In this document: piece after piece, positions 35,053-56,494 of the stretch | How the letters are laid out: each line of letters starts with the position of its first letter | Numbering within the stretch: position 1 is the first letter of the stretch | NCBI GenBank assembly: GCA_963971405.1 | Contig: OZ020492.1 | Location: 10,528,151-10,592,150 of the forward strand | Origin: Psococerastis gibbosa | Taxonomy: Eukaryota; Arthropoda; Insecta; Psocodea; Psocidae | Reading direction: 5' to 3' | DNA: 64,000 bases | Translations under genes and position numbers: made by a program | Notes under the pieces: generated by a model | What the model was told of the DNA's origin: nothing | Databases searched by the model: none | Seen by the model: only the letters and a program-made list of their open reading frames with translations

Positions 35053-35523
35053 TCAGGAATTGGAATACAAATCAGGAGACGGCTCATCCAGTGTTTTCAA
35101 AATTTTGCTCACATCCTTTTTCACCTCCAGCCCTTTCATGATTTGCTTCTTTAAGCGTTTCAATAATTCATCGTGTAATATGTGAAAACACATTGCAGTC
35201 AACGCTAATCCAGTAAGAATGTATATAGATGAGACCCAAATTGTGATAGTTTTGACGTCGTTTTGGAACACTAATGAGTCAGTGAGGTTTATCGTGCTGA
35301 GGCTCATGAAGCAGAAGTAGCAGCAATCGAGGAAGGGCCAGGACTCGAGGCGGACTAGAACCACGGACCCCACGATGATGTAAGAGAACATGATCATCAG
35401 GCAGAGTGCTAGTGGTGCGAGTATGCTTCCGGTGCTTTGAAAATTGACACTCCACTCTTCTTCGCAGTCTTTGCCGTCGGTATTACTGGAACTGGTTCCT
35501 CCAGATCGCACGTAGAATGGTTC
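35053..35523 (-). CDS. K2P channel exon B: M3, altered pore 2, M4 and C-terminus
   Basis: Starts EPFYVRSGGTSS after a TTGTTACAG acceptor and runs 156 codons to TGA. Membrane helices and spacing are normal; only the filter TINLTD is unusual. The open frame continues upstream past the acceptor into a HINE remnant; that part is intron. Confidence 0.9.
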   Translation of the reverse strand, partial: EPFYVRSGGTSSSNTDGKDCEEEWSVNFQSTGSILAPLALCLMIMFSYIIVGSVVLVRLESWPFLDCCYFCFMSLSTINLTDSLVFQNDVKTITIWVSSIYILTGLALTAMCFHILHDELLKRLKKQIMKGLEVKKDVSKILKTLDEPSPDLYSNS

Positions 35524-37331
35524 CTGTAACAATATAGCGGAAATTTCATTTGGGCTCTTAGAGGTAACAATCAAAGGCCATGTCCCCATGTTTCGGAAAT
35601 TATACTGTACGGTGCCCGTTATAATCATGATTATCTTATTTTGGGGTCCGTTTTTTGGCTTCCATATAGTATAAAGAAAGCATTGGATGGTTGAAATGTT
35701 TGATTTCAATATTTCAGTGGATTTACATGCTTTGATGTCCCATGAACCCAAAAAAGTGCATGTTCGTCGATTTTTAGGCAAATCAATCGGTGGATTTAGA
35801 TAAAATTTCAAATTTGCCATGTAGATTCACTCAAATCATGTTAGGGGAACTTATTGTGAGCTAACTCAAATTTGGGGGCTTTACAAAAACTAAAAAAACT
35901 ATCAGCCCTGATTACATACTGGAATATTTATTCGGCCGGAGAGATATTTGGAATATCTATGTTGAAGTTTACGTTTTTTAATCTGAATTTACTTATGTCA
36001 TTACACTATCGAATTTTTCATAGACCCATATATTATATTGAATGGAATATTATTCGAGTGTGTAAAATGGGGGGAATAAAAGCTTTTTTCTCAAAAATGG
36101 CTGAAATGATTTCTTTTAAATTCCCATACATTGTAGTCATCATTAATGTAAACAAACCCTAATATGTCGCTTGCCCCTTGATAGTTTAGTTCTGCGAGTA
36201 AAAAAACTAAAAAAACAACTCAATTTTTCATGAAAAATGAATAAAAAATAATTTCCAGCTAGACCTTTCAATCGATGTGTTTTAACTTCAAGTATAATCT
36301 AGGTGTTAAGTAGAATAACAGAACTGAATGGATTGCTTCCCCAGAAAAGATTTTTTATTGAATAAAAAATTTCTTTTTGAAGAAATTATTTATCATTCAT
36401 GCACATTGCATACCATTATTACTGTGTTGAATAATATTGCTCAGCCCGTTGTAGACTATGCGATCATCCCATCAATCAATTCAGTGCTTTGTGATAGGGA
36501 AACTCGAGGCATCCGAATTTCAACCCTAGGACAACTATTTACTAAAGACCTATTCTAATTGATAAGTTGGAAAGCATACACGGGTTCACTCGTAACAGTC
36601 CTTTTATTTTATTATTAATCATTATATATTTTTATTATTTTATATATTATAAATCATTAATTATTAATTAAAGAAATCAATAAATATATTAAAATGAAGG
36701 CTGTAGCCAGATTTTTTTTTTTTGGGGGGGGGGGGTTTAGAAATTTTATTGGGCATTACATAGTGGTTTTTAGTTTTCCTCTCAAAATCCGAATCTATCT
36801 AGTATCAAGCCATTTCATTTCGGGGGGGGGGGGGGGGTGAAACCCCATGAACCCCCCCTTGGCTACAGCCTTGATTCAAATAATCTCATCTGTCGTCTCA
36901 GTATAGGTATACCTAAGTTCAGTTACAAGTCTCCAATCCCACGCTGTATATAGACATAATTTGTTATATATATTATATATTATAGCCTATAAGGAGCAAG
37001 TTAACGATTATGCAGTGTGTAATTTTATTTGCAAATGAACTATAATTATATTATTTATTTACCTGCAGCTGCTTACTCTGTAGCTCCTCTAGTTCCCTCT
37101 TCCTCTTCATACGCCTCTCCTTCTCAAGCATGCGCTTTTCGTCGTAGCAGCAATAACCGCAGTTGCTGCACAGACAGCAGCACAGCGCTTTGGAGCAGAC
37201 TCCTCGCGCACAGCGCGACAGCACGGACCCGATGCTGGAGAGATACAGCAGCATGAGCGGAATGCCTATCACAGCGTAGATAATCGTCACAAGTTTCCCC
37301 ATTGTGCTCCGTGGTGAGAAACCCCCGAATC
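35053..37331 (-). CDS. Two-pore-domain potassium channel (K2P), last two exons; second filter altered
   Basis: K2P subunits have four membrane helices and two pore loops and normally pass background K+ current as dimers at the plasma membrane. Exon A (37063-37331) begins inside pore 1 with GFGGFSPRST, a normal GFG filter. Next come helix M2 (TIIYAVIGIPLMLLYLSSIG), a Cys-rich turn (CCCLCSNCGYCC) and a basic cytoplasmic loop. Exon B (35053-35523) holds M3 (ILAPLALCLMIMFSYIIVG), pore loop 2 and M4 (IYILTGLALTAMCFHILHDE), then a short tail and TGA. Pore 2 reads FCFMSLSTINLTDSL where the family has TIGFGD, so both filter glycines are gone. The exons join in phase 0. The N-terminus, M1 and first pore helix were not found in the window. 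Confidence 0.9.
35657..36603 (+). mobile_element. HINE-like element, copy 4 (old, in the K2P intron)
   Basis: A diverged copy with the GTCT microsatellite lost. It runs from CCATATAGTATAAAGAAAGC to GATAAGTTGGAAAGCATACA and GGTTCACTCG. A short derivative of the CCCCCCAATTAC element (35906-36074) interrupts it. It fills most of the intron between K2P exons A and B. Confidence 0.78.
35906..36074. mobile_element. 169-bp derivative of the CCCCCCAATTAC element, inside a HINE
   Basis: The left end matches the 25846 element (GATTAC, then GGAATATTTATTCGG). The right end carries ATTATTCGAGTGTGTAAAAT and GGGGGG. It lacks the middle ~750 bases of the long copy. Confidence 0.7.
36697..36872. mobile_element. 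Short MITE with AAGGCTGTAGCCA ends, copy 2
   Basis: The left end AAGGCTGTAGCCAG and the right end TTGGCTACAGCCTT are inverted. The 176-bp unit holds G runs of 12 (36724-36735) and 16 (36822-36837). It lies in the K2P intron. Confidence 0.8.
37063..37331 (-). CDS. K2P channel exon A: pore-1 filter, M2 and cytoplasmic loop
   Basis: Starts after a TATTGCAG acceptor with two bases of a split Gly codon, giving GFGGFSP. It ends LQSKQLQ at a GTAAAT donor. A hAT-like inverted-repeat element begins only 19 bases upstream of the exon, at 37350. Confidence 0.9.
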
Positions 37332-37349
37332 CTGCAATAAATTAATAGT

Positions 37350-37679
37350 CAGAGGCGGTCCAAGACCTCATGAAAGGGGGAGGCACTTCTCAGTAGCGTA
37401 ACGATAGGTTTTGAAAAATAGGGCCGAGATATTGGGGTTTTACACATTTTCAGAGCAATAAGGTTTCTATATTACAGGGAATTTAATAACATTGTGCACA
37501 AGGGGGGCCCGGAGGTCTCCCCCGCGAGAAAAATTTCTGAAGAATAGAGCTGAAATAGTGGGGTTTTACTCATTTTGAGTGCAGTTAACACTTGGATTTT
37601 AGAGGCAAAGAATATAACTGCCTTCCAAGGGGGGGGGGGGGGGAATTGCCCGCAGTGCCGGTCGCTGTGTCCGCCTCTG
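37350..37679. mobile_element. 330-bp hAT-like inverted-repeat element next to a K2P splice acceptor
   Basis: The ends CAGAGGCGGTCC and GTCCGCCTCTG are inverted repeats of hAT type (CAGNGGCGG). No 8-bp duplication is recognisable. A run of 15 G lies at 37629-37643. A single matching end (CAGAGGCGGACAC) occurs beside HINE copy 5 at about 43158. Confidence 0.7.
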
Positions 37680-37697
37680 AGTTAAGTAACATAAAGT

Positions 37698-37830
37698 TAT
37701 TTATGGTCAGGAATAGTCCCGTTGCTAGAGAATTAAACTATGAGAGTTCAGGCCCAGGTCCGAGACCCCACATATAAGGAAAAAGCTTCCACCCAACTCT
37801 AATGGGTACCGTACCTGTATTGTAATTTCT
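37698..37830 (+). mobile_element. SINE-3-like fragment
   Basis: AGGAATAGTCCCGTTGCTAG, a box-B-like GGTCCGAGACCC, then CTTCCACCCAACTCTAATGG. It parallels 34536-34680. Confidence 0.5.
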
Positions 37831-37837
37831 GAAGGGC

Positions 37838-38057
37838 TATTTATGGACCCAAACCTTCTTAAGTGGCCCAAAGGTCCCTTGTCCAATGCCAACGACCCCC
37901 AGGATTTCGGACATTATTTGTATTGTTTCCGTATGCATTTTTTGTATACGTTCTCGATGTCACCGGCTACAAGCGATAATGGCCAAGCTGAGACTAGCTT
38001 ACCATTGACGTAATGAAACAGGTGAAAGCATGACTTAACCGAGTACAGTATACGAGT
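37838..38057 (-). repeat. R245 dispersed repeat copy
   Basis: The minus strand runs from TCGGTTAAGTCATGC through CGCTTGTAGCCGGTGACATC to GGTCGTTGGCATTGGACAAG and TTTGGGTCCATAAA. It aligns with 56495-56742 and 60237-60480. Confidence 0.75.
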
Positions 38058-38164
38058 CAGTACATTACCTACATCAGTTGGGGGAAAACGCGGCAGCAGG
38101 CCACGTTGCTGACCACTACGTCCCGAATAGAGCAGTGGTCAAGAGAGAGGATACTCCTAATATA

Positions 38165-38525
38165 GTCTTTTCTTGAGTTGCAATCTAGGGATTGGTTTGC
38201 AGCGAATGTTGCACTTTTCTCCTCCACTCTTGTATATTTTTTGCGGTCTTTTTCAGTCCTTTATAGGAGTCGCACCCTATAGGTCCTTCATGACATCCTC
38301 AATGTACTCCTTCCTCTGTCATCCTCTTGAGTTGGTGCCTTCAACCATACCCTCAATGATGTTCTTGAAGAGCCCTTCGTGTCTGAGAATATGTCCCATC
38401 CATTTGTCTCTTCTTGTTGAAATGGTGGCCATAATAGCTTTTTTCGTTTATTCTATGGAGCACTTCTTCGTTGGTTATGTGGTCTCTCCATGGGATTTTC
38501 AAAATTCTTCCGTATAGCACCACAA
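38165..38525 (-). pseudogene. RTE-like LINE C-terminal fragment
   Basis: The minus strand reads KIPWRDHITNEEVLHRINEK, then RDKWMGHILRHEGLFKNIIE and GMVEGTNSRG with a stop shortly after. This is the standard block after the reverse transcriptase in RTE and related LINEs. A parallel fragment is at 63540-63715. Confidence 0.8.
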
Positions 38526-40274
38526 CTCAAAGACTAATATAGTATCTTGCCATATCCAAACACATTTTATAGATACAGAGCACCTATTTAACATTGTAGA
38601 AAGCCTCTACGGGCAGGGGGTTTGTCACACTCCAGTACTACTCAGGACCTTATAAGATTAGGGTATACTATCAACCTAGGACGATATGCAGGGAGTTGCT
38701 GCCAACCAATCGCTAAGATTGTAACCTTAAGAAGAAGATCAACCTATCAATGCATAATGGTGCCGTGCAGTTTTCCCTACCGAGACTTTTCAAGGGGTAG
38801 AATAAATCAGGAAGCTTTCCAAGTAAATTCTATGGGGGGCATAAATTAGGGAATATGTGCCCTGTTGCATATCTATACTCGTATACAACGGACCCTTGAC
38901 CCTTCTTTCTCCCACCCTATTTTTTGGGGAAAAGGCACAGGTCTAAATATTTTTTAAACAATTATTAACCATGAAATGAAATAAAGTTTTTCAACTTTTT
39001 AATATGCGTCGTCATTTTGAAGGAAATATAGATGGATGCATACATGGAAAGTGCTGTAGGCATGAAACTGCGTAAGCTAAACAAAAAAATGAAAATAAAA
39101 GCAGTTGAGTAAGGGCTTTTTTTAGACGTCAATACGAAAGTTCCATGATTTTAGAAAAGGTTCAAAACTTCCCATAAACGCGTTAACGCTCTTACAAAAA
39201 AGGAACCAATACGTCCTGAGGCGCACCGGAAAAACAATAAAGAAGCAGTATATTACAGCGCACAGCGTCAAATAATCTCCAGTTTCAAGTTTTCGCTCCA
39301 CTTTTCTAATATCCACGCCAAAAAGCCGACGTATGGTGGTCACAAAATACAACCCAACCCTGGCAATTTCCTCCAAAAAGGGTTTGTCACCCGTCCCCAT
39401 TCCCTATGTTTCCTGAAAGCGTACCGTACTTTCTACAATATTTTTTAGTCTATTGAAATTTTTTATTAAAAATTGTGAGGGAGTCCCCCTCCCCCTCTGA
39501 AAACCCGGAAATGGGAGAATTCAATTGAGTTGATACTGTATAATGTATTGATCATACGATCGAGTGAGCTCGTTTTTTGGAATTTGTGTTATTCATGTTT
39601 TTTGCGGTATCTCCTTTATGGGTTTATATCTGCCACGACTATAGGAAGAACAGTCTTATCTTAAAACCACTCTAGGTTACATTATATTTTAGTGTAGCGG
39701 TTTCCAAAGTGCGCACAGCTGTGCCCTTAGGCCACCGACTTGTAAAAACACTAAACGCATTATTAAAACTAAAAAAAAGTTCTATCTATGGCGATTTTTG
39801 ATTGAGGGGAGAATGGGCGCAAAAACAGGGAAGTTTACTGTTGTGCCATTTTTTAACCCACCACTATCTAATTTTGTGAAAATCATGGATATTTGATTCT
39901 TAACAGGTTGTTGCGGAATTTATTTTAATAGGGCTTATTTGGGGCAAGAAGTTTTTATGGAAATAATATTTAGAACAGGGGGGGGGGGCTGTTGCAATGG
40001 TGATGGTAGTGTGATTTACTGTTCATCCTGAACCACTAGTTAAATAGGTAGGTAGGTTGTAGCTATTAACAACCTGCGGGTACTTGCCGTAAGAGCACCG
40101 CCAATTGAATATCTATAGCTATGGAACTGAGGCGTTTGAAAAGTTTGGGAACTACTGCATTAGCCCCTTTAAAAGAAATAAGTTTATACAACAGTATTAG
40201 CAGAAAAGCTGGAGGTACGTTTTCGCTAGGTCGAAATCGGTTGCGTTTACAACGTGCCTCTTTTCGTAACATGA
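38526..40274. other. Unassigned intergenic DNA
   Basis: No gene identified. A 92-codon minus-strand frame at 39122-39400 has one hydrophobic stretch (LTLCAVIYCFFIVFPV) but no family signature and does not resemble the missing K2P N-terminus. A G run is at 39978-39988. Confidence 0.35.
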
Positions 40275-40439
40275 GGTTTCACATTCTGTCCCTCTGGTTA
40301 CAATTTTCCTTAGGTTCGGAATCGACTATAATCAGGATGTCCACCCTGTTAGTCTTGTAGAAGCTAATGTGGGGTAAAGATACACAACGCTTGCGTGTGA
40401 GTGTTGATCAACTGCATAAATAACTGAATAGAAAGGTAA

Positions 40440-40700
40440 AGTATTGTATTGCTGCCAATGGCCAATGACCACGTTGAATCCATTAGAGCAGAGCATGTTT
40501 CAAACTGCGGCAAAACATGGTAGTGTGCACAGCGTTGGCAGGGGAGCATGGTGGGACATGATAACGCACTGAGACTAAACCAGTCCGTCTACGTGTGTGT
40601 CGAGTCCTGGTCACCTCCGAATTAATCGTGTGACTTTACCTTGTTCCCCAAGTGGTTCGGAATCCACTATAATCAGGAGGTCCACCCTGTCATTCAACTG
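40440..40700 (-). repeat. Dispersed repeat, inverted partner of 16108-16380
   Basis: On the minus strand: CAGGGTGGACCTCCTGATTA, GATTCCGAACCACTTGGGG, CACACGATTAATTCGGAGG. A second short piece of it is at 40310-40350. An AAC microsatellite follows at 40821-40842. Confidence 0.65.
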
Positions 40701-41620
40701 CCCTTTCGCCGAGGTGAAAGAGTCTGCCCTTAGGGTGTCTTAAGTTAACAAACAGACTCACTACCCCGCCAGGCTGACAGGGTTGCTTAAAGCAGAAATG
40801 CTGAAAGCAGGCGTTAGAAACAACAACAACAACAACAATTTTCTTTAGGTCATTGTTTACTCTTGTCGGAGCTAGGGGTTCATACGCTGACTTCCAAGTG
40901 CTGCAAATGCACATTTAGACTTAATATTAATTGATTAAAAGCCAATGTGTCCCAGTGACATTTTATTTTATTTTTTGAGATAAGTGCACCATGACAGTCT
41001 CCGGGACCCAATCCATGGGAGAAGCCCAACGGTATGTCACTTAGATACAGGTACAATGATCTATAAGGGGTTACAAATATTGTCAACCGTTAAAAGGATA
41101 CAGACAAACAGTATCTACCCTTTTCCCCAAAATCGGCCTGACTCCACTTGCCCACATTGGCTTTTGACCCATTCTTATTGCTTTTTAGATTATAATCCTC
41201 CAGAGTTTTTCTTTCGAATTGCAGCTGGAACGGACGAAAAAATATGCAGGCTACGTATTAAAAGAAATCAGGGAAACCAGAATTCTAGAGAGATTTCCCT
41301 AGCGATGAAAAGGAAAGGAGGTGGGCCATCAATAAGAAATGCGGCCAGAGAACTCTCACAGGGAACCTCGTCAATAACCTAGTAACCTGCGTCAGACCCA
41401 CCGCATATCTTTTATTTCATATTTTCAGCAAAAAATTTGATAAATGGTTGAGTGAGTTGGTTGAAAGTTTTTATGTCAAGGTGGATCTTCCGAATCTAAG
41501 AAGTATTGTGGTAAAGACTTCGATTCTCATCTTATCATTGCTTTGCGCCGAAATGAAGCTGTTTTTTAATAAACCAACTATATCCACTTTTCCAAATGGT
41601 TGAGGAACAAAAAGAACTTC
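40701..41620. other. Unassigned intergenic DNA
   Basis: A 132-codon plus-strand frame at 40984-41382 has no recognisable motif. The stretch 41430-41600 reads KFDKWLSELVESFYVKVDLP in one frame, vaguely transposase-like, but too short to call. Confidence 0.3.
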
Positions 41621-41624
41621 CTGG

Positions 41625-41765
41625 ACCTGACCAAAATTAGAGGATATGGAAGAAACTGGATTTGGCGGGGTTTGAACCCACCATCTACGCCTAACTGGGA
41701 CGTCGTCTTAACCGCTGGACCACAAGCCCCGACAAGTGCAGCAATCTCCAAATCCTCTACTTATG
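41625..41765 (-). mobile_element. tRNA-derived SINE-2, copy 1
   Basis: The minus strand has GGTCCAGCGGTTAAGACGAC, GCGTAGATGGTGGG and box B GGTTCAAACCCCGC, followed by AAATCCAGTTTCTTCCATAT. The paired copy at 42490-42625 lies on the other side of a hAT-like element. Confidence 0.75.
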
Positions 41766-41829
41766 CTCTGATTGACATGATTCGTAATGCTAGACAGGTT
41801 AGCACAGCTACTCAACTATCTAACCGAAC

Positions 41830-42389
41830 CATTGGCGTAAATAGGGGGGCCCTGGGGGGGCTAAGCCCCCCAAGCGGTACCCGTTGCCCCCCCTCCCACC
41901 CCGCAGGATTTTTGGTGACAAAGACGTTATGGAGGCGAAATGCATAGCAGCCACAATAACGAAGGGGAAATTGATTCTTGGTATGCTTATTATACGTGAA
42001 AGACATCATTTAAAAAAATCTACATATTGACCAAGTACATTCACAAAAAATATATTTTTCTACGGGGCAGACCCCCGGGCCCCCCTCCGTGGTAGGTTTA
42101 TTCGTCGGTGAAAACTCAACTTTGCTGCTTGGAAAACGCGAAAAACCTCACGGATTTGGGCTCATTTATCGATTTTTTTCTCGGGCCCCCCTTTTACTAG
42201 GGTATAACAAGCGCAAAACCTCACTAATTTGGGCCTACTTATGCATTTTATTTTCTCCGGGGGAGACCCCTGGGCCCCCTTTCTGCTGGGTTTAATATGC
42301 GTATAAATTCACTAATTTGGGCCTATTTATCAATTTTTTCTCCCAAAGACCCCCCCCCCCCCCAGAAATGTTGGGAATTTGCGCCAATG
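41830..42389. mobile_element. 560-bp hAT-like element with perfect 8-bp target duplication
   Basis: The inverted ends CATTGGCGTAAAT and ATTTGCGCCAATG (one mismatch) are flanked by AACCGAAC at 41822-41829 and exactly AACCGAAC at 42390-42397. An 8-bp duplication is characteristic of hAT transposition. Inside are three imperfect ~85-bp tandem units (about 42060-42362). There is no transposase frame. Confidence 0.92.
42060..42362 (+). repeat. Three imperfect ~85-bp tandem units inside the hAT-like element
   Basis: Each unit has a C/G-rich block (GACCCCCGGGCCCCC or a variant), a variable middle, then CTCACTAATTTGGGCCTAYT and an ATCGATTTTTTTCTC-like end. The last ends in a run of 14 C (42350-42363). 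Confidence 0.75.
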
Positions 42390-42489
42390 AACCGAACAGG
42401 TCTCTTAGCTTACTTTATTGCATAAAAGCAATGCTCTATTCAATACATTGCAGTATTATATGGTATAAATAACACTGACATTAAATTAA

Positions 42490-42625
42490 TCTTTATTGAA
42501 GAGGTTACCTCCACGTTATAACCAAAATTATAGGATATGGAAAAAACTGGACTTCGCGGGATTCGAACCCAAGATCTACGCCTACTGGGGCATCGTCTTT
42601 GCCGCTGGATCACAAGCCTCGACAA
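42490..42625 (-). mobile_element. tRNA-derived SINE-2, copy 2
   Basis: The minus strand has GTGATCCAGCGGCAAAGACG, TAGGCGTAGATCTTG and box B GGGTTCGAATCCCGC, then AAGTCCAGTTTTTTCCATAT and GGAGGTAACCTCTTC. The box B is intact, but it is not a functional tRNA: there is no acceptor stem. Confidence 0.8.
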
Positions 42626-42954
42626 GTGATAGTGTTATACCTATATATATATATATAATATAATACAGCAATGTATATCTTGGATCTGAGTTATTTCTTA
42701 ACTAAACGATATTATCAACGCCCTACTGTGCCAAAGCCATATTCTGTGCTATAGTATGTCAGTACTGTACTAGTACTGTCCGTATTACTACTACGGAGAT
42801 AAAAATTTCCGGATACCCATTTATTAAAAAATAGCAAATAAACAAAAAACAAAATTAGCTTAACTCCCGACAATATTGGAATGTATTCCCTCCTTCACGA
42901 ACTCGGTTAAGCCGGGCTCAAGCCTGCTAGGATGTCACACCATATCCATTGTCA

Positions 42955-42995
42955 CTTGTGACCGGTGTGGGTTGACATCGGGAACTTGTACAATT
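42955..42995 (+). repeat. R245 fragment
   Basis: A short piece, GTGACCGGTGTGGGTTGACA then TCGGGAACTTGTAC, from the middle of R245. Confidence 0.5.
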
Positions 42996-43174
42996 TTGAT
43001 CAATTGATGCAAATGCAATAGCCAAAAAATTCAATGAGTTCGTTATCAGGTTCAATGGACCACTAGCAATACAAGTATCCCTACGCACATAAAAGGAACT
43101 TGAAAATAGGAAAACTGGTGCATTGCCTACTAGCCATACGGTGGAATTTTTCAGTGTCAGAGGCGGACACAGTT

Positions 43175-44026
43175 GTTTTCCAATTTATACGTAGTATAAG
43201 GAAAGCTTTGTGACTGTCGAAATTTTCGATTCCGAGATTTCAACGGATATACACGTTTTAAGGTCCCAGGAACCCAAAAAAGTGGTTTTTACGAAATGTC
43301 TGTCGTTCTGTCTGTCTGTGCGTCGATTTCCGGGCAAACTACTCAGTCGATTTAGATGAAATTCGGCATGTAGGTTCACAAAAATCATACCTCGGAACAT
43401 TTTTTTTTTTTTGGGCTAACTTGATCTAGGGGGGTTTTATTCTCAAAAAACTCCAAAAAAATGTCTAAAAAAATTATTTCTCAAAAACGGCTCCAACGAT
43501 TTCTGTTAAATTCACATATATTGTAGCTGTTATTAACGTTAACGAAATGCGGGGGGTCGCATGCCCCTTGATAGGTTGCTTCTGGGGGTAAAAAAATAAA
43601 AATAACTAAATTTTAATGAAAAATTACTCAAAAATAATTTTTCTGCGAAACCTTTCTATCGATGATTTCTACCTTCAGGTATGTTTTAGGTGTTAAATTG
43701 AATAACGAAACCGGACAGCTTGCTTTCCCAGAAAAGTATTTGGTTTTGTAAAAAAAAATGTTTTTTTTTTAAAAATTATAGAAAATTCACGCTCAAATGC
43801 ATTGCGTGCCCTGCCAGTATTGATGTGTGGTAATGTGTTAGTCTGACCTATCTTGAATTTACCTCACCTCCAGTGACGTCAGGTGGACAACCCCCCCCCC
43901 CCCCCCCCCCCGAGATATTGGAAATGTAACCATAGGAAAATTATTTACCATGAAATTACTCATTTTCTCTATCTACTAATTTTGATAAATTGGAAAGCAT
44001 GTTCGAGTAAACTCGGACCGGTTCTT
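43175..44026 (+). mobile_element. HINE-like element, copy 5 (complete)
   Basis: About 852 bp from TTTTCCAATTTATACGTAGT to AAATTGGAAAGCATGTTCGA and CTCGGACCGGTTCTTT. It has GTCT repeats near 43299-43320 and a run of 21 C at 43891-43911. The 14-base inverted blocks and the 3' hairpin are intact. Confidence 0.88.
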
Positions 44027-44639
44027 TATAGGAGGGTCAGCCCTCAACATGCCGCCTCAGGTATAAACTGAGAATAAAAGCAATACAGTATTTGATTTAA
44101 GTAACTGATTTCATTTTTCCGGACAAGACTGGTTGGTACATACAAAACCACAAAAAAAATTAAGTTGTTATTTTGCCACCTTTTTCAAATTTTTGGACGG
44201 GATCATGACCCTCCCTGACCCCCGCCACTGTTCAGTGTTTGGTAATACTGAAAAATGACGCCTCCTTACCAATAACCTTAAAAAAAACCAATTATGTCCA
44301 AAAAATCAAATAAGTCTTGGACGGGGCAAGGTTCAATGGACACGACTATGCGTTAGCCTACGTACGTTCATAAAATAAGTCCTTAAAATATAAAAAAAAA
44401 ACATTCATCGGCATGTACACTGAGAGCGTTCACAGATCGTGCAAGAACGGTTTCATGGTATTGTAAATGCATGCATTGCTGTATGGTTAGAAGTCCAGAA
44501 CATGGGGGTGCAATTTGTGTAAATCAGGCCAGGAAAAAGGAAGCAGCGGCCCGAACAAGTTGGTGCCGCGGGGCGACCGAACCCTCCATCCCTCCCCTAT
44601 TTCTCCACAAAGCAACCTGTAAGTTTCCCAACTTCTAAA

Positions 44640-44991
44640 AGGTTCAGGGCCGTATTCAGATAAGAACCGTAGCCAGAACAGAATGATTATTTCTGACAAA
44701 AAAACCTTATCATACCTATTGCAACATACGGAAACCTGGAATCTTACTGTCAATGACGCAAACAAGAACAAACTGCGCTTATTCGAAAGAACGATAATGA
44801 GGAGGCTCTATGGACCCCTATGCGAAGACGGAGAGTGGCGTATAAGAAACAGCGCTGAAATATACGTAATACTCAACGGAGAAGACATAGTCCGGTATAG
44901 AAAAGCACATCGCTTAAGATGGTTGGAACACGTATGAATGTCAGGAAGGCGACTGACGTGACGTCCTCGAACACGCTGGAACTGCTGGAAG
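44640..44991 (+). pseudogene. LINE C-terminal fragment, left half (split by HINE copy 6)
   Basis: Reads ETWNLTVNDANKNKLRLFER, TIMRRLYGPLCEDGEWRIRN and ILNGEDIVRYRKAHRLRWLE, a standard post-reverse-transcriptase block of RTE/L2-like LINEs. In-frame stops follow at 44935. It continues at 45857. Confidence 0.85.
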
Positions 44992-45856
44992 GACCGATCC
45001 GAGTTTACTTGAACATGCTTTCCAATTTATCATAATTAGTAGACAGAGAAAATGAGTAATTTCATGGTACATAATTTCCTATGGTTAAATTTCCGATATC
45101 TGGGGGGGGGGGGGGCGTCCATCCATCTAACGTCACTGGAGGTGAGGTAAATTCTAGATAATTCAGACCAACACATTACCACACAGCAATAATGGCACAG
45201 CACGCAATGCATTTGAGCGTGAATTTTCTACAATTAAAAAAAAAAAAAAAAAAAACATTTTTTTCCACAAAACCGAATAGTTTTTTGGGAAGCAACCTGT
45301 CCGGTTTCGTTACTCAATTTAAAACCTAAAACATGCCTGAAGGTAGAAATCATTGATGGAAAGGTTTCGCAGAAAAAAATTTTTTTAGTTATTTTTAATG
45401 AAAATTCGGTTATTTTTATTTTTTTACCCCCAGAAGCAAACTATCAAGGGGCAAGCGACCCCCTACATTTTGTCAACATTATCACAACTACAAAATATGT
45501 GAATTTAAAAGAAATCGTTGGAGCCGTTTTTGATAAATAATGTTTTTGACGTTTTTTTTTTGGAGTTTTTTGAGAATAAACCCCCCCCCCCCAAATTGAG
45601 TTAGCCCAAAATAAAAAAAAGTGGTCTCGAGGTATGATTTTTTTAAACCTACATGCTGAATTTTATCATAATCGACCGAGCAGTTTGCCCGGAAATCGAT
45701 GAACAGACAGACAGAGCGACAGACAGACAGACATTTCGTAAAAACCACTTTTTTGGGTTCCTGTGACATCAAAACGCGTAATTCCGTTGAAATCTCGGAA
45801 TCGAAAATTTGGACCGTCACAAAGCTTTCCTTATACTACGTATAAATTGGCAAGCA
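44992..45856 (-). mobile_element. HINE-like element, copy 6, inserted in a LINE
   Basis: About 865 bp on the minus strand. The 3' hairpin end is at the left (CCGAGTTTACTTGAACATGC) and TTTATACGTAGTATAAGG near the right. Runs of 14 G (45102-45115) and 12 C (45581-45592). The LINE halves on both sides are contiguous parts of one protein. Confidence 0.87.
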
Positions 45857-46010
45857 AAAAGAAGCCAGAAGGATACCACAGGCCGAGACTGCGATGGGAA
45901 GCTGGGGTGAGAGAAGTGCTCAGGCAGATAGGAATACGAGGATGGAGGATCCAAGTACAGGACTGTGCCTCATGGGGAAATGTTGTCAAACCCGTACCCT
46001 CCATGGGTTG
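45857..46010 (+). pseudogene. LINE C-terminal fragment, right half
   Basis: Reads KPEGYHRPRLRWEAGVREVL and RQIGIRGWRIQVQDCASWGN. This is the GRPxxRWxDxVxxDLxxxG..W...A.DR..W block that follows LRWLEHV in these LINEs. Only the HINE separates the two halves. Confidence 0.82.
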
Positions 46011-46210
46011 TAGAACGACAGCGTAAGTGTAAGGCTACGACCCCCTAGACAGTCTCCGCCTCTTGGCTCATAGGCTAGTTCCCAGCACCTAACAATGCGT
46101 GGCAGCGAAGTATCTGTGACCGATGATGGGAGCCTCCCGGAAAAAGTTCCAGCATCTGCCGATGGACAGCAGTCTGGCTTTCTGCCACAGGTCCGGTCTT
46201 TCTGTTTATT

Positions 46211-47048
46211 GCTTTCCAATTTATACGTAGTATAAGGAAAGCTTTGTGATGGTCGAAATTTCCGATTCCGAGATTTCAACGGAGTTACACATTTTGAGGT
46301 CCCCGGAACCCAAAAAAGTGGTTTTTACGAAATGTCTGTCTGTCTGTCTGTTCATCTATTTCCGGGCAAACTACTCGGCCAATTTTCATGAAATTTTGTA
46401 TGTAGGTTCACAAAAATCATGCCTCACGACCATAATTTTTTATTTTGGGCTAACTCAATTTGGGGGGGGTTTTATTTTCAAAAAACATCAAAAAAAGTCT
46501 AAAAAAATTATTTCTCAGAAACGGCTCCAACAATTTCTATTAAATTCACATATATTGTAGTCGTTATTAATGTTAACAAAATGCGGGGAGTCGCTTCCCC
46601 CTTGATTGTTTCCTTCTGGGGGTAAAAAAATAAAAATAACTAATTTTTAATGAAAAATGACTAAAAAATTTTTTTCTGCGAAACCTTTCTATCGATGATT
46701 TCTACCTTCAGGCATGTTTTAGGTGTTAAATTAGTAACGAAACCGGACAGGTTGCTTTCCCAAAAAACTATTTGGTTTGTGCAAAAAAAAAAAAAATGTT
46801 TTTGATAAAATGAAAATTCACGCTCAAATGCATTGCGTGCCCTGCCATTATTGCTGTGTGGTAATGTAATGTAATGTCTGACCTATCTAGAATTTACTTC
46901 ACCTACAGTGACGTCAGGTGGACAACCCCCCCCCCTGAGATGTCCGAAATTTAACTATAGGAATATTATTTACCATGAAATTACTCATTTTCTCTATCTA
47001 CTAATTGATAAATTGGAAAGCATGTTCGAGTAAACTCGGACCGGTTCT
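46211..47048 (+). mobile_element. HINE-like element, copy 7 (complete)
   Basis: From GCTTTCCAATTTATACGTAG to AAATTGGAAAGCATGTTCGA and ACTCGGACCGGTTCTTT. GTCT repeats are at about 46335-46350 and a run of 10 C at 46926-46935. It lies opposite in orientation to copy 6, 355 bases away. Confidence 0.88.
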
Positions 47049-47914
47049 TTCCATACTCTTTCATTTTAGGAGTGAACTCAGCTAAATCATGCATGCAGCG
47101 ACATGGCAATTGGCAGGAGCATGATCTCAAAAGTGTCCATGGGCAGATTGCTCCCTGAGTTTCGGAATATAAATATAAATAAATGAATAATAGTGTTTAT
47201 TCAGTAATCAGTAAATCCTTATCACTAGTCTACATTACGCTACATTAGGCGGCTTCGATCAAATTAATTCTATTAGACAATTAAGTAGCCTATTTTTCAG
47301 TAAAGAAAGAATTTTAATGCTGCTTTCGTAATATACCAGGCTCCCATTTAATTAAGGAATTAAACTTAATTCTGAAACAAGCTTGAATTAAACTAAAAAG
47401 GCTGGCAAATTTTTTAATGATTACACCTCGAAACGGGTTGCAAAAATATGGAAAAAGGGCTGAAGCGAAAGGGTTTAGGTGGTGGAAAATTGAAATAGGG
47501 GAGTTTGGTGCCAGTCGAAAATGGGATGGGATGAAATCACAGGGTTCCACAGCAATTCTCGCTATGGCTATTTCAAAATACTTTTTTCCTATTCCAAGCA
47601 TGAACCCATCTATCTGTCGGGCATTTGAATTCTCTTACATTTTTATAAAATAAATGTTTCGAAGGAGTTATTTTATTTCTTTTTACTTGCTCATCTGAAG
47701 CGTAAAGTGAAAGCATAGAAAATGTAAGCTAAATATAGATTTGCTAAGTTATTAAAATTATGACAATAAAATATTGTAAATAATACCTTATCGAAAGCTG
47801 TATTATAATCAAATCAAATCAATTGTATTTAATTCTAACTCAAAGTACAGGATACAAATCAACAATTCCCAGCCCCAAAATTAATGTTCCTAAAAATGTG
47901 CTTGAGGAGGGAAC
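47049..47914. other. Unassigned intergenic DNA
   Basis: No gene recognised. The stretch 47320-47640 has open frames on both strands and looks less repetitive, but no family is evident. A CAAAT repeat near 47815-47830 may be an element tail. Confidence 0.35.
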
Positions 47915-48050
47915 ACGTTGCCCCGGAAAGGTATAGGTCGTGAGTTCGAGCCCCGGAGCGTCCGGTTTTTATTGCCTGTTTTCGGATATAGTGTCTTGAG
48001 AAGGCTGCCTCTTTAGTCTAAGCCAATTTAATGATAACTATTGATAAGCC
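47915..48050 (+). mobile_element. SINE-2-like copy
   Basis: TATAGGTCGTGAGTTCGAGC with CCCGG provides a box B, then TCCGGTTTTTATTGCCTG and AGAAGGCTGCCTCTTTAGTC. It follows the order of 53985-54110. Confidence 0.6.
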
Positions 48051-48114
48051 AAAATGAAGATTGTTTAATGTTCCTTTCATTCAGGCTGATTTCTCACTTC
48101 ACTTCACACATATT

Positions 48115-48272
48115 AAATAAATAAATAAGGACTTTTTATGGTTTCTATTACTAAGCCAACCTAGCCGAGTTAGGGCTATAAAGCCCTCTCTTACACTCAA
48201 CTAAGAAGGCCTGGGGCCACCTGCTTTACATGCCCTCCGAAGCATGGCCAGAAAATGTAGCCAGTGTGGGAC
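48115..48272 (-). mobile_element. tRNA-derived SINE-1, copy 4 (5'-truncated)
   Basis: The body from GTCCCACACTGGCTACATTT to AGGTTGGCTTAGTAATAGAA and the AAATA tail is present. The tRNA-like head is missing, and the break is sharp at 48272. Confidence 0.82.
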
Positions 48273-48465
48273 ATATTCCGCAAAAGCCACTCTTTTGATT
48301 CTCGATTAAAAATGGTTTTATTAAGTGCAGCAGCACGTCAGAGAACAATGAATCAGTTATTGTTTGAGTGAAAGAAGAAGAAACCTTGAATAAGTGAAGA
48401 CGTTCCGGTCTGATTTTCTAAGATCTGTAGACTGTTGGTTAGGAAATACCATGAGGAATATTTTT

Positions 48466-48503
48466 GTGACAAAATGACAAAATGACAAAATGACAAAATG
48501 ACA
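48466..48503 (+). repeat. GACAAAAT short tandem array
   Basis: Five near-perfect copies of an 8-base unit. It may be the tail of an adjacent element. Confidence 0.85.
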
Positions 48504-49570
48504 CCAATTCCCAGGTTCGCCCCTATTTCACTGGGCTAAAAATTGATATGATTTATAAAATAGATACATCAATTAATGTAGGGGAACACTTTTTCTATCT
48601 ACTTATTCCCAAATGATAGCTCTTTTATCGAAATTTCCCGTGGCAAGGGATATTTTACTCCTATCAGGTTTTTATCTCTGAGGCTTTTATCTTTTATGTC
48701 CCTCAAAGATTGCATCCATTGATTTTGAGCAAAATCCCCGTCCAACCCATATAGAAACGCAAACACGAAATACGTGTAATTCTCATGCAGGGAGAAACGG
48801 TTAGTTGGGGAGAAAGTGGTTTACATTTATCAAGCGTAACCTACCCCCCCCCCTCCCATGATAATTTAGGTTCAAAAAATGTCCCATTTTTTCCAGAGGG
48901 GAGAGATGTTGCAAAGTGTCGGAGAATTCTCTAGTTATCATGCAATCATTTACAGGCTGGGCCTTATTTTCATCCCTGCCAAATTTTTCTTCCTCTCTTG
49001 TATGCGAGAATCCTCTGTTCATTTATATTTTTGTCTGTTTCTCTTTCAAAGGGGGTTCTTTTGTGTAGTTTAAGGGATAGGGTTGCATTTTATACTATAC
49101 CTTCACATATCCCACTTTATTGGATAATTGTAAGAGCAAGTCGAAACGCACAAAATTCACCAAATGTTAAACTTATGAAAGCCAATTTTCTTACTATCTC
49201 TTGTTATTTGGCAGAGTATTAAAAAAAAAACATATATTAGGCTACTTTAAAAATTATTAGCTATTATTTCGAGAATCACAATCAGAATATGGTACAATTA
49301 ACATGACCTTTAAACTAATTTAAGTGTTACACACACTAATAGCGTCTACTAAACAAAGTTCTGATGGTGCAAAAAATTATTTTACAGGCATCAAGATTGA
49401 GATTGAGAATATGATGGTGAAGTAGAAGAAGATGAAGGGGAAGTAAAAGAAAAGAGGAAGCCGAAGATGACGATGATAAAGAAGAAGGTTATGAAGGAGA
49501 AGAAGCAGAAGATGACGATGAAGGAGGGGAAGAAGAACATCGTGGTGAAGGATAATAAGATGAAGAAAGA
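48504..49570. other. Unassigned intergenic DNA with a GA-rich tract
   Basis: 49410-49560 is a purine-rich GAA/GAT/GAG low-complexity tract that produces spurious open frames. The remainder shows no gene. A run of 10 C lies at 48844-48853. Confidence 0.4.
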
Positions 49571-49577
49571 GAAGTAC

Positions 49578-49799
49578 ATGTCAGGACATGTAGAGCAGTG
49601 GTACGGACTCTGACTTTCACCCGAAAGGGTGTTGGTTCGAGTCCTACACTTCCTACATTTTCTGGCCATGCTTCGGAGGGCATTTAAAGCAGGCGGTCCC
49701 GGGCCTTCCTAATTGAGTGTAAGAGATGGCTTTATAGCCCTAACTCCGCTAGGTTGGCTTAGTAATAGAACAAAAAGTCATTATTTATTTATTTATTGA
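49578..49799 (+). mobile_element. tRNA-derived SINE-1, copy 5 (best preserved)
   Basis: The head has ACATGTAGAGCAGTGG (box-A-like) and box B GGTTCGAGTCC. The complete body follows (TTTCTGGCCATGCTTCGG, GCGGTCCCGGGCCTTCC, GGCTTTATAGCCCTAACTCC) with a TATTT tail. It can serve as the family reference. Confidence 0.9.
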
Positions 49800-50876
49800 A
49801 GTAGAAGAAAAGAAGAACCAGAAGATGATGATGGTGATGAAGAAGAATAAGAAGTAGATTCCGGAATTTAGAAAGAAATTTGAAGGATTTGAAAGAGAAT
49901 TTGAAGCACTGAGAAGCCCCTCCCCCTCCCCATTACCCCATTTCTTCTGTTCCATTGAACATTTTATTTTTTCTACTTCAAGAAGGTCGTAGGCTATGTA
50001 ATAATTCTATCACAGAGAAAAAAGTATAAATGTATATCTTGGGTATTAGGCTATATCTTTCTCTGTGATTCCAAGATAAAAAATATCAGACCGCCCCCCC
50101 CCCCCCAAAACATTTAGAAAACTCCCAACTTATATCTAGTTGATGCTGATGAAATGTAATCCTTAGAAGCCTAGAGTACATAAATAAGCCAAAAAACTTT
50201 CAATCCAAAAACTAAGGGAAACAAAAATTCCTGACTGAGTTTTAAGAGGACAGCTTTTACAGCAGGGTAAAAGTCTTTTTTATGACTTTCCTTCGACTCG
50301 AAAGCGATATTGTGCCTTTCTTCGTTTCAATACTGAGAATCGTGGATTATTTAATTCAATTATTTAATTATAATCACAACGTATAATCCCGAATGAAAGC
50401 GAGAAACTTATAGGCAAATAATTTTGTAAAGTATTTTAAGTCCATTAGCTAATTTATTTAAACTAATAGAAGCCTGGAAAAAATATAAATTTGGTTTACT
50501 TTTGTTCTTATTATTGTTTTGGTACAAGATCCAGTCAACTGAAATAGTTTGTAGCGCAGTGGACATCAGTAAGTGAGGCAATGGACCGTGTCAAATCCGT
50601 TACGACGACGGGGATGGGGGGGGGGGGGGGTTTAGGGAGTTCAGGCAGGGGGGGGGGAGTGGTTAAAATTTAGTAGCACCTTTCTGATTCATCCGTTTCA
50701 AACTTTTGGGAAGTTGGATGAAAGCTTCAGAATTTAAGTTTTGATTTAACTTTTCCACTTATACGCGGCAGTATGATTTACGATAAAATAGAACAATAGG
50801 TTTATGCTCATTTGAATGGATTCACGACGTTAGCTATGGAACAATGACATAAGTATTGCCAATATACACTGTAATC

Positions 50877-51047
50877 ATGGCCGTGCCCAGGGGGGTGGTC
50901 CAAGGGGACCAGATCACCCCCCCCCCCCCGGAATAATTTTTTATGTAAACCTGTATTGTTTGAAGAATTCACCGATTAATTCATTAATACATTGAAATAA
51001 ATAAAAAAAATTGACCCCCCCCCAAATCAAAACCTGGTCACGGCCTT
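50877..51047. mobile_element. Short MITE with GGCCGTGCCCAGG ends, copy 3
   Basis: The left end TGGCCGTGCCCAGG and the right end CCTGGTCACGGCCTT are inverted. A run of 13 C is at 50917-50929. Same family as 17400-17532. Confidence 0.75.
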
Positions 51048-52399
51048 GACTGTAATACTAATTGTAACATGCTGTACGATATATGCACGCCACTCACCAA
51101 TAAGTTGAGATATTTTCAAAACTTTTTCATGAAGAGGTCCATGAAAACAAAACAACGCTTAAAATGAGGAGTCACGTGCGGAAACCTTTCCTCTAACATT
51201 TCCCCTTGTACAAAAGACTTCAAAATTGCCTTTTTCCTTTTGTGCGCTTATTGCTTAACCTTCGAACCCTTCCCATTGTTTCTATCTCTGCCTACGAAAA
51301 AAAAAAAACGTTAGAAATGTCACCCAGCAAAATAAAATGGTCTTTGAGCCCTTTATTGGTCAAGTTCCCCGAGTGCCTTCTAATTTTGTGCGTCACCATT
51401 TTCTACACTCTCTTAAATTGAAGTTAAATGTCAAATTCGAAAGGTGAAAGGTGAATAAGACCGGCCAATTCGGATGTGTCGAGAAGTTCAATTCGAGGTT
51501 CACATTGGGTCCCTCAGGTTACATTTTTCCTTAGCTGAGATAGCTGTGTCAGCCTTTGGACTAGGTCCTGATTTTGTGTCGCTACAGTTTGGTTATCATA
51601 CGTCCCCATATCGCAGCCAGGACTCCGCCTCAAAAATTTGCCTAATTCCTTAATAACCCCTTCAACATCGAAACGTGTAATTACGCTAAAATTTCGACCA
51701 CCACAAAGCTAACCTTAAAACGTATAAATCCTTGGAGAATTTAATTTGTTATAAATCAAGAAACTTCAAAATAAACTTGTATTTTTATGTGAAAAAAAAT
51801 TAAACAATTCTCATAATATATATACAATATGTCATTACGTAACTATACCATTGACCTGGCTATCTCCCCTGCCCCCCCCCCGTATCCGTCCACTATGTAG
51901 GATTCCCATGCGAAAGTTGTTCATTTAGTACATGAAAAAAGAGGACTCCAGGCTACTCCTCACCCAGCAGCCCCCCCCCCCCAACAAACTCCGACTGTGT
52001 TGAATGGATGAGCTCCCCGCGAAGGAAAGGACCATCGAAATTGCGAGAGGAAACCTTCGGAGCCTTCCGTCCTTTGATATGCAAATGGCCAGCAATCCAC
52101 CCTTAGTGTTATTAATGGCTAGAATGGCTCCTACCGCTAAACTGACTATTTCAAACCATTTCCAGCCACATGGAATTGCCCCGCAATTTCCTTTACTCCC
52201 CCTCCCCCAAGCCCATCCCTCCTTGCTTCACACAACCCTGAAGGCATTTAAATTACATACAACGCCCTGAGAGGTCTACGTCTATGATGACAGAGGGAGG
52301 GGCGGCCATTTTCTGGTTCCTTTACTATAAAAAAAGGCTGCCCGTAGACTTCTTTTCCTTCACGCGCTTGGTCAAGTGGAAGTATGAAGGTTAAACGAA
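51048..52399. other. Unassigned intergenic DNA
   Basis: Includes a 60-bp HINE 5'-end fragment at about 51668-51728 and C runs at 51872-51881 and 51971-51982. The GC-richer block 52000-52275 has an 88-codon frame with no recognisable domain. Confidence 0.4.
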
Positions 52400-52618
52400 A
52401 TAAATAGATAAATAAAAAAATCTATTACTGAGCCGAAGAAGCGGAGTTAGAGTTATAAAGCTCTCTCTTACACTCAACTAGGAAGGCCCGAGACAGTCTG
52501 CTTTACAAGCCCTCCGAAGCATGGCCAGAAAATGTAGCGAGTGTGGGACCAACCTTTCGGGTGAAAGTCGGAGTCCGTGCTACTACTCTACATGTCCTAT
52601 CCTGACACAAAACTGTAA
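52400..52618 (-). mobile_element. tRNA-derived SINE-1, copy 6
   Basis: The body is present. Box B is damaged by a deletion (GGTTGGTCCC). The head has ACATGTAGAGTAGTAGCACG and the tail an AAATA repeat. Confidence 0.82.
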
Positions 52619-52759
52619 TAAGTAAAAAGTTTTAAAAATTTCAATATACGCATGAGTGGGGGAATTTTTTTCCTTTAATGCCTAGTCTTGAATGGTCAAC
52701 CCTCGGTTCATAAAAATAATTTAACTATAGAAGATGCTAGCAGCGGGAAACAGCGGAAA

Positions 52760-53215
52760 TCACTCTCGTAAACCAGCCCATACCGCGTGATTTACCGAGG
52801 ACTGATGCAGTCGCAAAATTTAGACTCTACTGGGCACGACTACCTACAAGTGCACCTCCACCGGATCGGGTTGTAGACTCGGACACCTGTCCTCTTTGCA
52901 ACTTTGGGAGAATGGACGGTCTAGAACTTCAGGATTGCGCAGCCCTCTCCAACTACCAGGACAGAAACCCCTTGCGTCTTAACGGGGAAGCTCGTCAGCG
53001 TATGGCAGAGATGCCAAGAGCTGGCATTGGATAAAGTAAAGTAAGTTGTAGACTGGGACACCTGTCCTCTTTGCAACTTTGGGAAAATGAACGGTCTACA
53101 ACTTCAGGATTGCGCAGCCCTCTCCAACTACCAGGACAGAAACCTCTTGCGTCTTAACCGGGAAGCTCGTCGGCGTATGGCAGAGATGCCAAGAGCTGGC
53201 ATTGGATAAAGTAAG
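52760..53215 (+). pseudogene. LINE 3' end with its last ~175 bp tandemly duplicated
   Basis: One frame reads LPRTDAVAKFRLYWARLP and VDSDTCPLCNFGRMDGLELQ, then DCAALSNYQDR; another gives TGHDYLQVHLHRIG. These match the C-terminal CxxC zinc-knuckle region of an arthropod LINE, with a frameshift. Positions 52868-53040 and 53045-53215 are near-identical direct copies, each ending at GCTGGCATTGGATAAAGTAA. Confidence 0.8.
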
Positions 53216-53984
53216 TAAGGTTGATAATGTGACATAGTCGACTCTTCTACAAACTGGAATGCGGGCTCTCCCAACTGGCGGTTTTTGGGATTAATTTGAA
53301 TGGGCCTTTGATTGGTTAGGAAAGATAGATACCTCACACGTTCGACACCCCAGAAATATTTATTCAATTTAAAATCCTTTTTGCCATTCCTATCATGAAA
53401 TATTGAACAAAAAAACACGCACGAATAAGTTTCTATTTGATTTGAGGTCATCTGTTCATGATCGGAAGGGCAAACTGATGGCTTACAAAACCACTGGGAT
53501 ATTTCCCGACCCCCCTCCCTCCGGCCGATTTAACCCCATGACCCCCCTTATATTCCCCAATGTTTCCATTTCAATCATTTCATTTGACGCTCATTTGAAA
53601 CCTATAATGGGTGCTAAATCATGCAAAGGGATTGGCGGCAAAAAGGTCAGGTTTTTGGGAAATGCTATTATTTAATATTATGTGACTGTTGCGAGTAAGC
53701 AATGGTTGTAATAAAAAAAGGAAAGATATCTCAAATAAATTGAGTAGAGGCATAAGCTTTTGGTTTTCCGTATCAGCTTTTTAATGAGGACTGACCGAGG
53801 ATCCTATTACTTGACCACTGCTCTGTTTGTGAAGTTGTTGGCTGAAGCATAGCATCTTTTTCCCCTACCGTAAATCATCAAGGCATCCATTATATTATAG
53901 CAAAATCACATCAAATCAAATCAAATAAATTTATTCCAATTCTTCAACAATTCAGGTTTACATAATATCAAGGCCGTAGCCAAG
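53216..53984. other. Unassigned intergenic DNA
   Basis: The stretch 53225-53680 is open in places but matches nothing I know. A CAAAT repeat at 53907-53930 resembles the tail near 47815. Confidence 0.35.
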
Positions 53985-54110
53985 GGGGGCTCGCCCTGGA
54001 GAGGCGTAGATCGTGGGCTCGGATCCCGTCAAGTCCAGTTTTTCAAAATCCACTTATTTGGGATACAACGAGGAGGTTACCTCTTCAGCTTAACTTAGTT
54101 TAATGCCAGT
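53985..54110 (+). mobile_element. tRNA-derived SINE-2, copy 3
   Basis: GGAGAGGCGTAGATCGTGGG, box-B-like GGCTCGGATCCCG, then TCAAGTCCAGTTTTTC and GAGGAGGTTACCTCTTCAGC. Same order as the reverse complement of 42490-42625. Confidence 0.72.
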
Positions 54111-55307
54111 GTTATTAAACTACTCCAGTTGGATTGAAACGCATGTTGCTGACCACAACACACCAACTAGTGCAGTGGTGAATATAGAAGATCCTCTACC
54201 ATTCCTTTAGCCAAGATCCTTCACTTTTCATACCACCACAGTCTCCAGAGAATAAATTCAAAAAACGATACCAAGGAAACAGAACATACTTTGCGAGCAT
54301 TTCTGTTTCGCAGTAAAAAGACACTTTTCGTGGGAATTTCCAAAATATTGTGGTTACTTCAAAATACCATTCTTGAAAGCTTGAAGAAGTAAGCAGCTTA
54401 AAGACATCAGCAGATCTTGTAGGTAAACCCATACCTGGTAAACTTATTGTATGGAGCTTAGTTTTGAGACAAAATATGACATTTCCCAATTGAAAAGCGT
54501 GAAACAAATTGGGGCAAACATGTCTGGGAGAAAATGAGAGGTTGTGTTGAGTGTAGAGGAGAATGTATGGAATTCAGCGCTGCAGCAAAGTTCGTGTGTA
54601 ACCATAATAACACCATCTCTAATGCTAAAATTGCAAAAATCGTATCTCTACGAATTTCGCGTCAACACTTTGGGTAAATTTGATGTTTTTGCAAGTAATG
54701 GGGCCCTTGCAAGGCCGTAGCCAGAGGGGGAGGGGGGTTTCCATAAAAGGCAATTTGGAAATAAATTTGACTCAAAACTGATATTATTGTAGAGGTGAAC
54801 GATGTGGAACTCAAACGAGCTGCAACCAGGTGCAATAAATACCAATAACACATTCGAACAAAACTGAAACGTTCTTATATTATAGATCACTGCTCTACAT
54901 CTTGACGGACTACTGGTAGTCTGCCTTTTCTTCGGGCATGCCAGCCCCCCTCTCGATTTAGTCTGTAAGCTGTACTAATTCTTTTGTGTTTTGCTTTTCA
55001 TTTTCACATCCTACCTAAAACATTTGTTACTGCAACTGCTTTCTGTTTATTTAATTTTTAATTTTTAAATGAGGTTAATTGGATACAGTCATTAAATTGT
55101 TTGTACGCGAATTAACCTTTTTGTAAAATAAAAATAAAAATAAAAGTTCTAGCCCTTCCCAGTCTTTCTTCTTCCAAGAACCGGCCTCTGCTTTATGCAT
55201 TTTCTCTTAACTACCCCAGGCTACGGACAACAAGCTCCTACCAATAGCTAAAAGCTCCAAAAATCTGAGAATGCCGAGAAGTAGCAGAGGCAAGTCAAAA
55301 AGCAATT
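54111..55307. other. Unassigned intergenic DNA with a LINE-like tail
   Basis: The segment 54880-55145 ends in an AAAAT repeat (55125-55145), like a LINE 3' UTR, but no coding block is legible. The stretch 54200-54540 matches nothing recognised. Confidence 0.35.
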
Positions 55308-55642
55308 CAGTGATACCTTGAGATAAGAGTTTAATTCGTTCCGTAACCTTGCTTTTAAGTCAATTTGTTCGTATCTCAAAGCAATTTTCCCCACTGAAAT
55401 TAATTGAAATGCCATTAATCCGTTCCAGCCCCAAAAATCCTACCCCTAATTGTTTTTGTTACGTGTTTTTCAGTAATTTTTGAATGGTATTTTGGTTCCT
55501 TAATACATAATACATTAATACGTGGGATAATGCACGACGCGCAGGCGCTGTAAACTGGGTGGGTCGTGTGCAGCAGCTGGTGGTTCCTGGTATCTCGTAT
55601 GTGGGTCTTATGTAAGGACATTCGTATCTCGAGGTACCGCTG
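55308..55642. mobile_element. 335-bp MITE with CAGTGATACCTTGAGAT ends
   Basis: The left end CAGTGATACCTTGAGATAAG and the right end CTTTATCTCGAGG-type sequence (TATCTCGAGGTACCGCTG) are inverted. Just inside is AATTCGTTCCGTAACC, paired with ATTAATCCGTTCCAGCC. Such direct and inverted motifs are typical of a widely spread animal MITE type. The target duplication is not clear. Confidence 0.7.
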
Positions 55643-56463: not shown

Positions 56464-56494
56464 ATTGATTATTAGTTACTATTTTTAAGGACCT

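Follow-up and report, generated by a model that had tools for sequence, protein, structure and literature searches.

K2P channels are dimers that pass a K+ leak current, and four loops, two from P1 and two from P2, form their selectivity filter. Silent K2P subunits, a group that includes KCNK7, TASK-5 and THIK-2, are expected to give no current alone and to change that of their paralogues. Natural non-canonical filters are reported for nematode K2Ps such as UNC-58, which has one atypical residue. KCNK7, KCNK12 and KCNK15 are termed silent K2Ps (PMC8616229), and human KCNK7 (K2P7.1) is a K2P subunit without a proven function of its own (PMC8616229, PMC11339754). TASK-5 (KCNK15) is silent alone, but modulates TASK-1 and TASK-3 in heterodimers, lowers the surface expression of both and changes conductance and pharmacology (PMC11364637). 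TASK-5 G95E gives no current, TASK-3 G95E is dominant-negative, and subunits in which filter 1 is changed from GYG to EYG are described as dominant-negative (PMC11364637). TASK-1 G106R and L214R, located near the filter, are described as reaching the membrane, carrying little current and being apparently dominant-negative (PMC6376074). In TREK-1 a change in the P2 filter, I267T, alters selectivity, but this is a one-residue patient mutation and not a fixed gene (PMC5376757).

Here we analysed a stretch of 64,000 nucleotides from the insect Psococerastis gibbosa (the window; C20:10528151-10592150), which contains two of the three exons of a K2P gene whose model was predicted from genomic DNA alone (Table 1). 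In this gene both Gly residues of filter 2 are gone, whereas P2 of KCNK7, which belongs to a different subfamily, is said to read GLE, i.e. the second Gly is absent and the first is kept; UNC-58 in turn is from the nematode lineage. The likeness to TASK-5 that we propose below has to take into account that the common G95E variant of TASK-5 sits in filter 1 (PMC11364637). Both silence and atypical filters are already known among K2Ps, but in the open-licence PMC literature, queried by terms other than the peptide itself, we met no arthropod K2P that looks intact apart from a complete replacement of the P2 G-x-G by NLT, and no insect K2P with such a P2. Searches of exon 3 against IMG/VR viral contigs and GTDB genomes, and of exon 2 against IMG/VR viral contigs, returned no orthologue, an absence that means little as these are non-animal collections.

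Table 1. Gene model, related loci and neighbouring elements. Plain positions refer to the window, C13 and C20 positions to the contigs.
Feature	Position	Strand	Remarks
Exon 1	C20:10598686-10599178	-	outside the window, 6.5 kb past its edge; encodes M1, the cap region and pore helix 1 and ends with TTI and one base of the split Gly codon
Intron 1, part in the window	37332..64000	-	total intron length 33 kb
Exon 2 (exon A)	37063..37331	-	acceptor GCAG/GA; donor CAG/GTAAAT; joins exon 3 in phase 0; encodes the latter half of filter 1 (GFG), M2 including the GIP hinge, and a Cys-rich, basic linker
Intron 2	35524..37062	-	contains repeat pieces related to the copy at 46213-47035
Exon 3 (exon B; last coding)	35053..35523	-	156 aa and stop; acceptor TTACAG/GAA, phase 0; runs from the end of the M2-M3 linker through M3, pore helix 2, filter 2 and M4 to the C-terminal tail and stop
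Filter 2 codons AAC CTC ACT (Asn-Leu-Thr)	35281..35289	-	Gly-x-Gly at this place in the paralogues
Open frame following the stop of exon 3	34870-35052	-	TGA-C, then 60 open in-frame codons; rejected as readthrough extension
Canonical K2P cluster g1-g3	C20:21512316-21562430		11 Mb from the window gene, same contig
K2P paralogue g4	C13:18770760-18771293	-	351-aa intronless open frame spanning both pores
Interspersed repeats of about 0.8 kb	11850-12661, 33617-34426, 43177-44012, 45003-45853, 46213-47035		query copy and four near full-length copies, 78-87% identity
Fragments of the 0.8-kb repeat	between 26880 and 28729, between 35667 and 36369, near 51700, between 62620 and 62911
Open frame, 387 aa	3770-4930	-	PF00075 match (RNase H, E 1.7e-16); probable remnant or part of a non-LTR retrotransposon
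Open frame, 164 aa	28844-29335	-	partial DUF4807 match (PF16065, E 1.4e-10); possibly an exon of a neighbouring gene
Open frame, 135 aa	6148-6552	-	weak, unrelated Pfam match; presumably resembles the Tao kinase coiled coil

The translation of exon 3 includes FCFMSLSTINLTDSLVFQNDVK / LESWPFLDCCYFCFMSLSTINLTDSLVFQNDVKTITIWVSSIYILTGLALTAMCFHILHDEL, the filter-2 stretch, and together with the three filter codons it confirms the second filter TINLTD given in the preliminary description. Exon 1 was found by a search beyond the window; its ATG is preceded by an in-frame stop, and a GTAAGT donor follows TTI/G. Joined, the three exons yield a single predicted frame of 410 residues, across which the reported lack of stops and frameshifts holds. 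Both introns are of the GT...AG type and the splice phases match across all three exons. The first Gly codon of filter 1 is split by the phase-1 intron between exons 1 and 2, a feature common to 10 of the 11 K2P paralogues (g1-g11) found in the genome. The pore 1 GFG placed in exon A by the earlier description is present, but the TTI before it and the initial base of its Gly codon belong to exon 1. After M2 exon 2 encodes a Cys-rich stretch (CSKALCCCLCSNCGYCCYDEKRM) followed by a charged one; this region contains more Cys than the equivalent region of g1-g3, and the Cys-rich stretch may be lipidated or metal-binding.

That the gene is a true K2P paralogue, as had been proposed, is borne out by profile and structure-database matches as well as by the two pores of the predicted frame. 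Exon 3 matches Pfam PF07885 with an E-value of 6.3e-7 (29.6 bits, cut-off 22.5), and the full 410-aa protein contains two PF07885 stretches (total E 7.2e-23). In the PDB exon 3 matched 40 sequences at E <=1, the top ones being K2P channels with TASK-1 as the best (E 1.2e-9), and in the alignment NLT lies opposite the GFG of TIGFGD. TREK-1, TASK-1, TWIK-1 and TWIK-2 each align to the 410-aa protein in two stretches. The subunit is accordingly predicted from alignment to have four transmembrane helices and two pore loops. The long stretch between M1 and P1, where a K2P cap would lie, resembles that of g3, and the alignment with TREK-1 begins inside it. Pore 1 reads TTIGFGG across the predicted junction of exons 1 and 2 and contains G-x-G; pore 2 reads NLT and lacks the G-x-G of K2Ps. 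M2 has the glycine hinge with GIP (AVIGIPLMLL in exon 2), and the GIP hinge motif in M2 is described as a K2P feature in PMC6377628. Descent places the gene among the K2Ps, although its filter 2 is not that of a canonical K+ channel. An AlphaFold model of exon 3 alone, calculated without an alignment, had a mean pLDDT of 60.5 and a pTM of 0.36, with helices at residues 31-59, 62-82 and 91-145; this order fits M3, pore helix and M4, whereas residues 78-89, the filter included, have a pLDDT <50, i.e. the model is uninformative on the filter.

A PF07885 profile search of the 409-Mb genome (68 contigs, E <=0.001) gave at least 37 places, 22 of which belong to the 11 K2P paralogues; the non-K2P places include channels that are Kv-, Slo-, SK- and EAG-like by their motifs. 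Since the P2 blocks of the paralogues had first been found by a G-x-G regular expression, which is circular, the filters were read at all 37 Pfam places, whose detection requires no such motif. G-x-G occurs at 36 of these 37 places, although for eight of the 36, namely filter 1 in g1 and in g5-g11, an intron interrupts the first Gly codon and the base ahead of the intron was unread. The sole exception is P2 of the window gene, making its filter loss unique among the PF07885 places found. All 11 K2P paralogues have G-x-G in filter 2, and in all 11 filter 1 ends in Tyr-Gly. The first Gly of filter 1 was verified in g2, g3 and g4 and is presumed in the remaining eight; exon 1 was read for g2 and g3. 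Also divergent is g4, with TMIGYG in P1 and CKIGIGD in P2 (versus TTIGYG and TTIGFGD).

A close likeness is to a Sandman-related K2P clade, g1-g3 (C20:21.51-21.56 Mb), which shares the topology, the M2 motif and the position of the intron in the filter-1 Gly with the window gene and, with g4, is among the best matches of exon 3. In P2, however, g1-g3 have TIGFGD where the window gene has TINLTD, and tree support for the group is weak. The paralogue g2 carries the GMP motif that PMC6377628 reports for Drosophila Sandman. When the filter is left out, 20, 24 and 17 of 46 residues of exon 3 are identical to g1, g2 and g3, respectively, and 22, 21 and 25 of 44 in exon 2.

Several measures of constraint argue, in line with the preliminary description, against simple decay of the gene. 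In the M3-P2 block, which was aligned gap-free backwards from the filter, columns with fewer than eight letters being dropped, 15 columns reach an identity of 70% or more across g1-g11, with M3 columns doubtful for g7, g8, g10 and g11 and g5 lacking M3. The window gene retains 10 of these 15, and the five lost are the filter Gly, Phe and Gly, as well as an Ala replaced by Ser and a Val replaced by Leu. In a leave-one-out control the paralogues themselves lose none to five conserved columns (five in g8; four in g5, one of them a gap); the middle residue of filter 2 is altered in g4 and g8, but a filter Gly is lost in none of the 11. From P1 to M2 the window gene keeps 16 of 20 residues that are invariant in g2, g3 and g4, the remaining four being mild changes. 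In a tree calculated without the filter triplet and without g7 the end branch of the window gene (0.96) is near those of g3 (0.92) and g4 (1.07), and hence does not stand out as decaying. Its placement is weakly supported, as its fork (81/88) is in no starred set and one branch of eight is starred. As to the flanks of the filter, the pore helix and the trailing Asp are kept as described before, but M4 is weaker than had been implied, since from the filter Asp through M4 15 of 45 residues are identical to g1, the sole comparison for M4. Codon usage, trained on the small set of exons 1 and 2, identifies the initial 60 codons of exon 3 as coding, a score that 0% of non-coding open stretches reach, whereas two later 60-codon stretches are equalled or exceeded by 10.6% and 24.1% of them; the GC3 of exon 3 is 0.56 and the GC content of the window 0.385. 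Mild relaxation of exon 3 is thus possible, given that this exon is somewhat less paralogue-like than exon 2, with a low M4 identity to g1 and weak late codon usage.

The surroundings of the gene contain further open frames and a family of repeats (Table 1), the latter with TTTCCAATTTAT near both ends in inverted orientation. The open codons downstream of exon 3 were considered as a product of stop readthrough and rejected: 79 of 2212 TGAs in the window (3.6%) are followed by an equally long open frame, 58% of 631 non-coding open stretches match or beat the codon usage of this segment, and its GC3 is 0.35 as compared to 0.56. An alternative P2 exon was likewise discarded, as a regular-expression search in six frames detected the canonical filter motif nowhere in the window except in exon 2.

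The reading that we favour, and to which we give an even chance, is that of a K2P subunit that carries no current by itself but, in heterodimers, modulates canonical paralogues. Dimerisation, non-conduction and the choice of partners are what we infer here. Pore 1 is of the K+ type, whereas pore 2, although it retains the pore helix, the loop length and the flanking Thr-Ile and Asp, is without the signature that coordinates K+. In a homodimer two GFG and two NLT segments would make up the filter ring, and normal K+ conduction by this homodimer is improbable. Most likely the subunit would instead pair with canonical relatives, e.g. those of the g1-g3 cluster on the same contig, and may thereby lower or reshape their leak current or surface expression. 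We prefer this reading because P1 is normal and P2 is not, and because of the Gly-to-Glu precedents in filter 1 of TASK-3 and TASK-5 and the behaviour of TASK-5. This precedent is an analogy, as silence via filter 2 is not reported for TASK-5 in the passages cited (PMC11364637). The slower evolution of the paralogues g1 (end branch 0.26) and g2 (0.21) counts against a silent subunit.

The main rival is a conducting channel with changed selectivity, in which the filter, built from two GFG and two NLT segments, would be wider or less selective and would admit Na+, giving rise to a depolarising leak. The retained pore helix and trailing Asp and the gap-free alignment of the block are compatible with such a channel, and UNC-58 of C. 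elegans, which is said to be Na+-permeable via a Cys in its filter, also counts for it. It owes its rank to TREK-1 I267T, where exchange of the residue just before the P2 GFG gives a Na+-permeable channel with reduced current rather than silence (PMC5376757). Here, however, three consecutive filter residues are replaced, both Gly included, and the G95E variants of TASK-5 and TASK-3 are currentless and dominant-negative, respectively (PMC11364637), so that we consider changed selectivity fairly unlikely. Less likely still appears a membrane protein that is no longer a channel subunit at all and acts, e.g., as a scaffold via its Cys-rich linker; the unusual Cys-rich and then charged stretch of exon 2 would suit this role, but a pure scaffold would have no need for the filter 1 and GIP hinge that are retained.

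Early decay, i.e. a gene that lost its function recently and whose frame is open by chance, would account for the missing key functional motif, as expected of a null allele, and for the weak M4 and later codon usage of exon 3. Neutral simulations that take today's sequence as their start and allow neither indels nor multi-base events, with 2000 runs at each level, left the 410-codon frame open in 9% of the runs at 0.05 substitutions per site, in 1.3% at 0.1 and in none at 0.2. Yet a minimum of five base changes, none of them an indel, separates NLT from GFG (four from GLG), and no run at 0.05 or 0.1, but 1.4% of those at 0.2, altered as many as five of the nine filter bases; moreover, the start codon, the splice sites and the hinge motif are undamaged. 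The simulations thus suggest that the filter most likely changed while the remaining gene was under selection, unless one multi-base event was followed by recent relaxation, and we regard early decay as unlikely. An error of assembly or sequencing, or a post-transcriptional repair that restores GFG in the real protein, is the least probable alternative, a very small chance in our estimation, although the sequence rests on a single assembly. That five or more bases would have to differ, with the length unchanged, in a contig of 22.8 Mb makes a simple read error unlikely. A protein search with exon 3 scored 10 places, the others being at most 39% identical, which speaks against a close second copy or a duplicate exon, and no other P2 with a canonical filter is present in the window. 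A-to-I editing could turn AAC into a Gly codon, but ACT into Ala only, so that G-x-G is not restorable from the NLT codons and RNA editing was rejected.

A K2P with a hybrid filter, in which two strands are of the K+ type and two are Asn-Leu-Thr, might have been maintained for long and be conserved across an arthropod group, acting either as a native Na+ leak or as an inhibitory subunit for Sandman-like K2Ps, a thought that we offer tentatively and consider doubtful. Whether NLT is a shared old trait or confined to a single species decides how much the finding matters. K+ channels are defined by their G-x-G filter, and the window gene bears on whether the two pore loops, P1 and P2, have an equal share in selectivity as well as on whether silent subunits arise through filter loss. 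Genes of this kind should, as a matter of caution, not be annotated as leak K+ channels.
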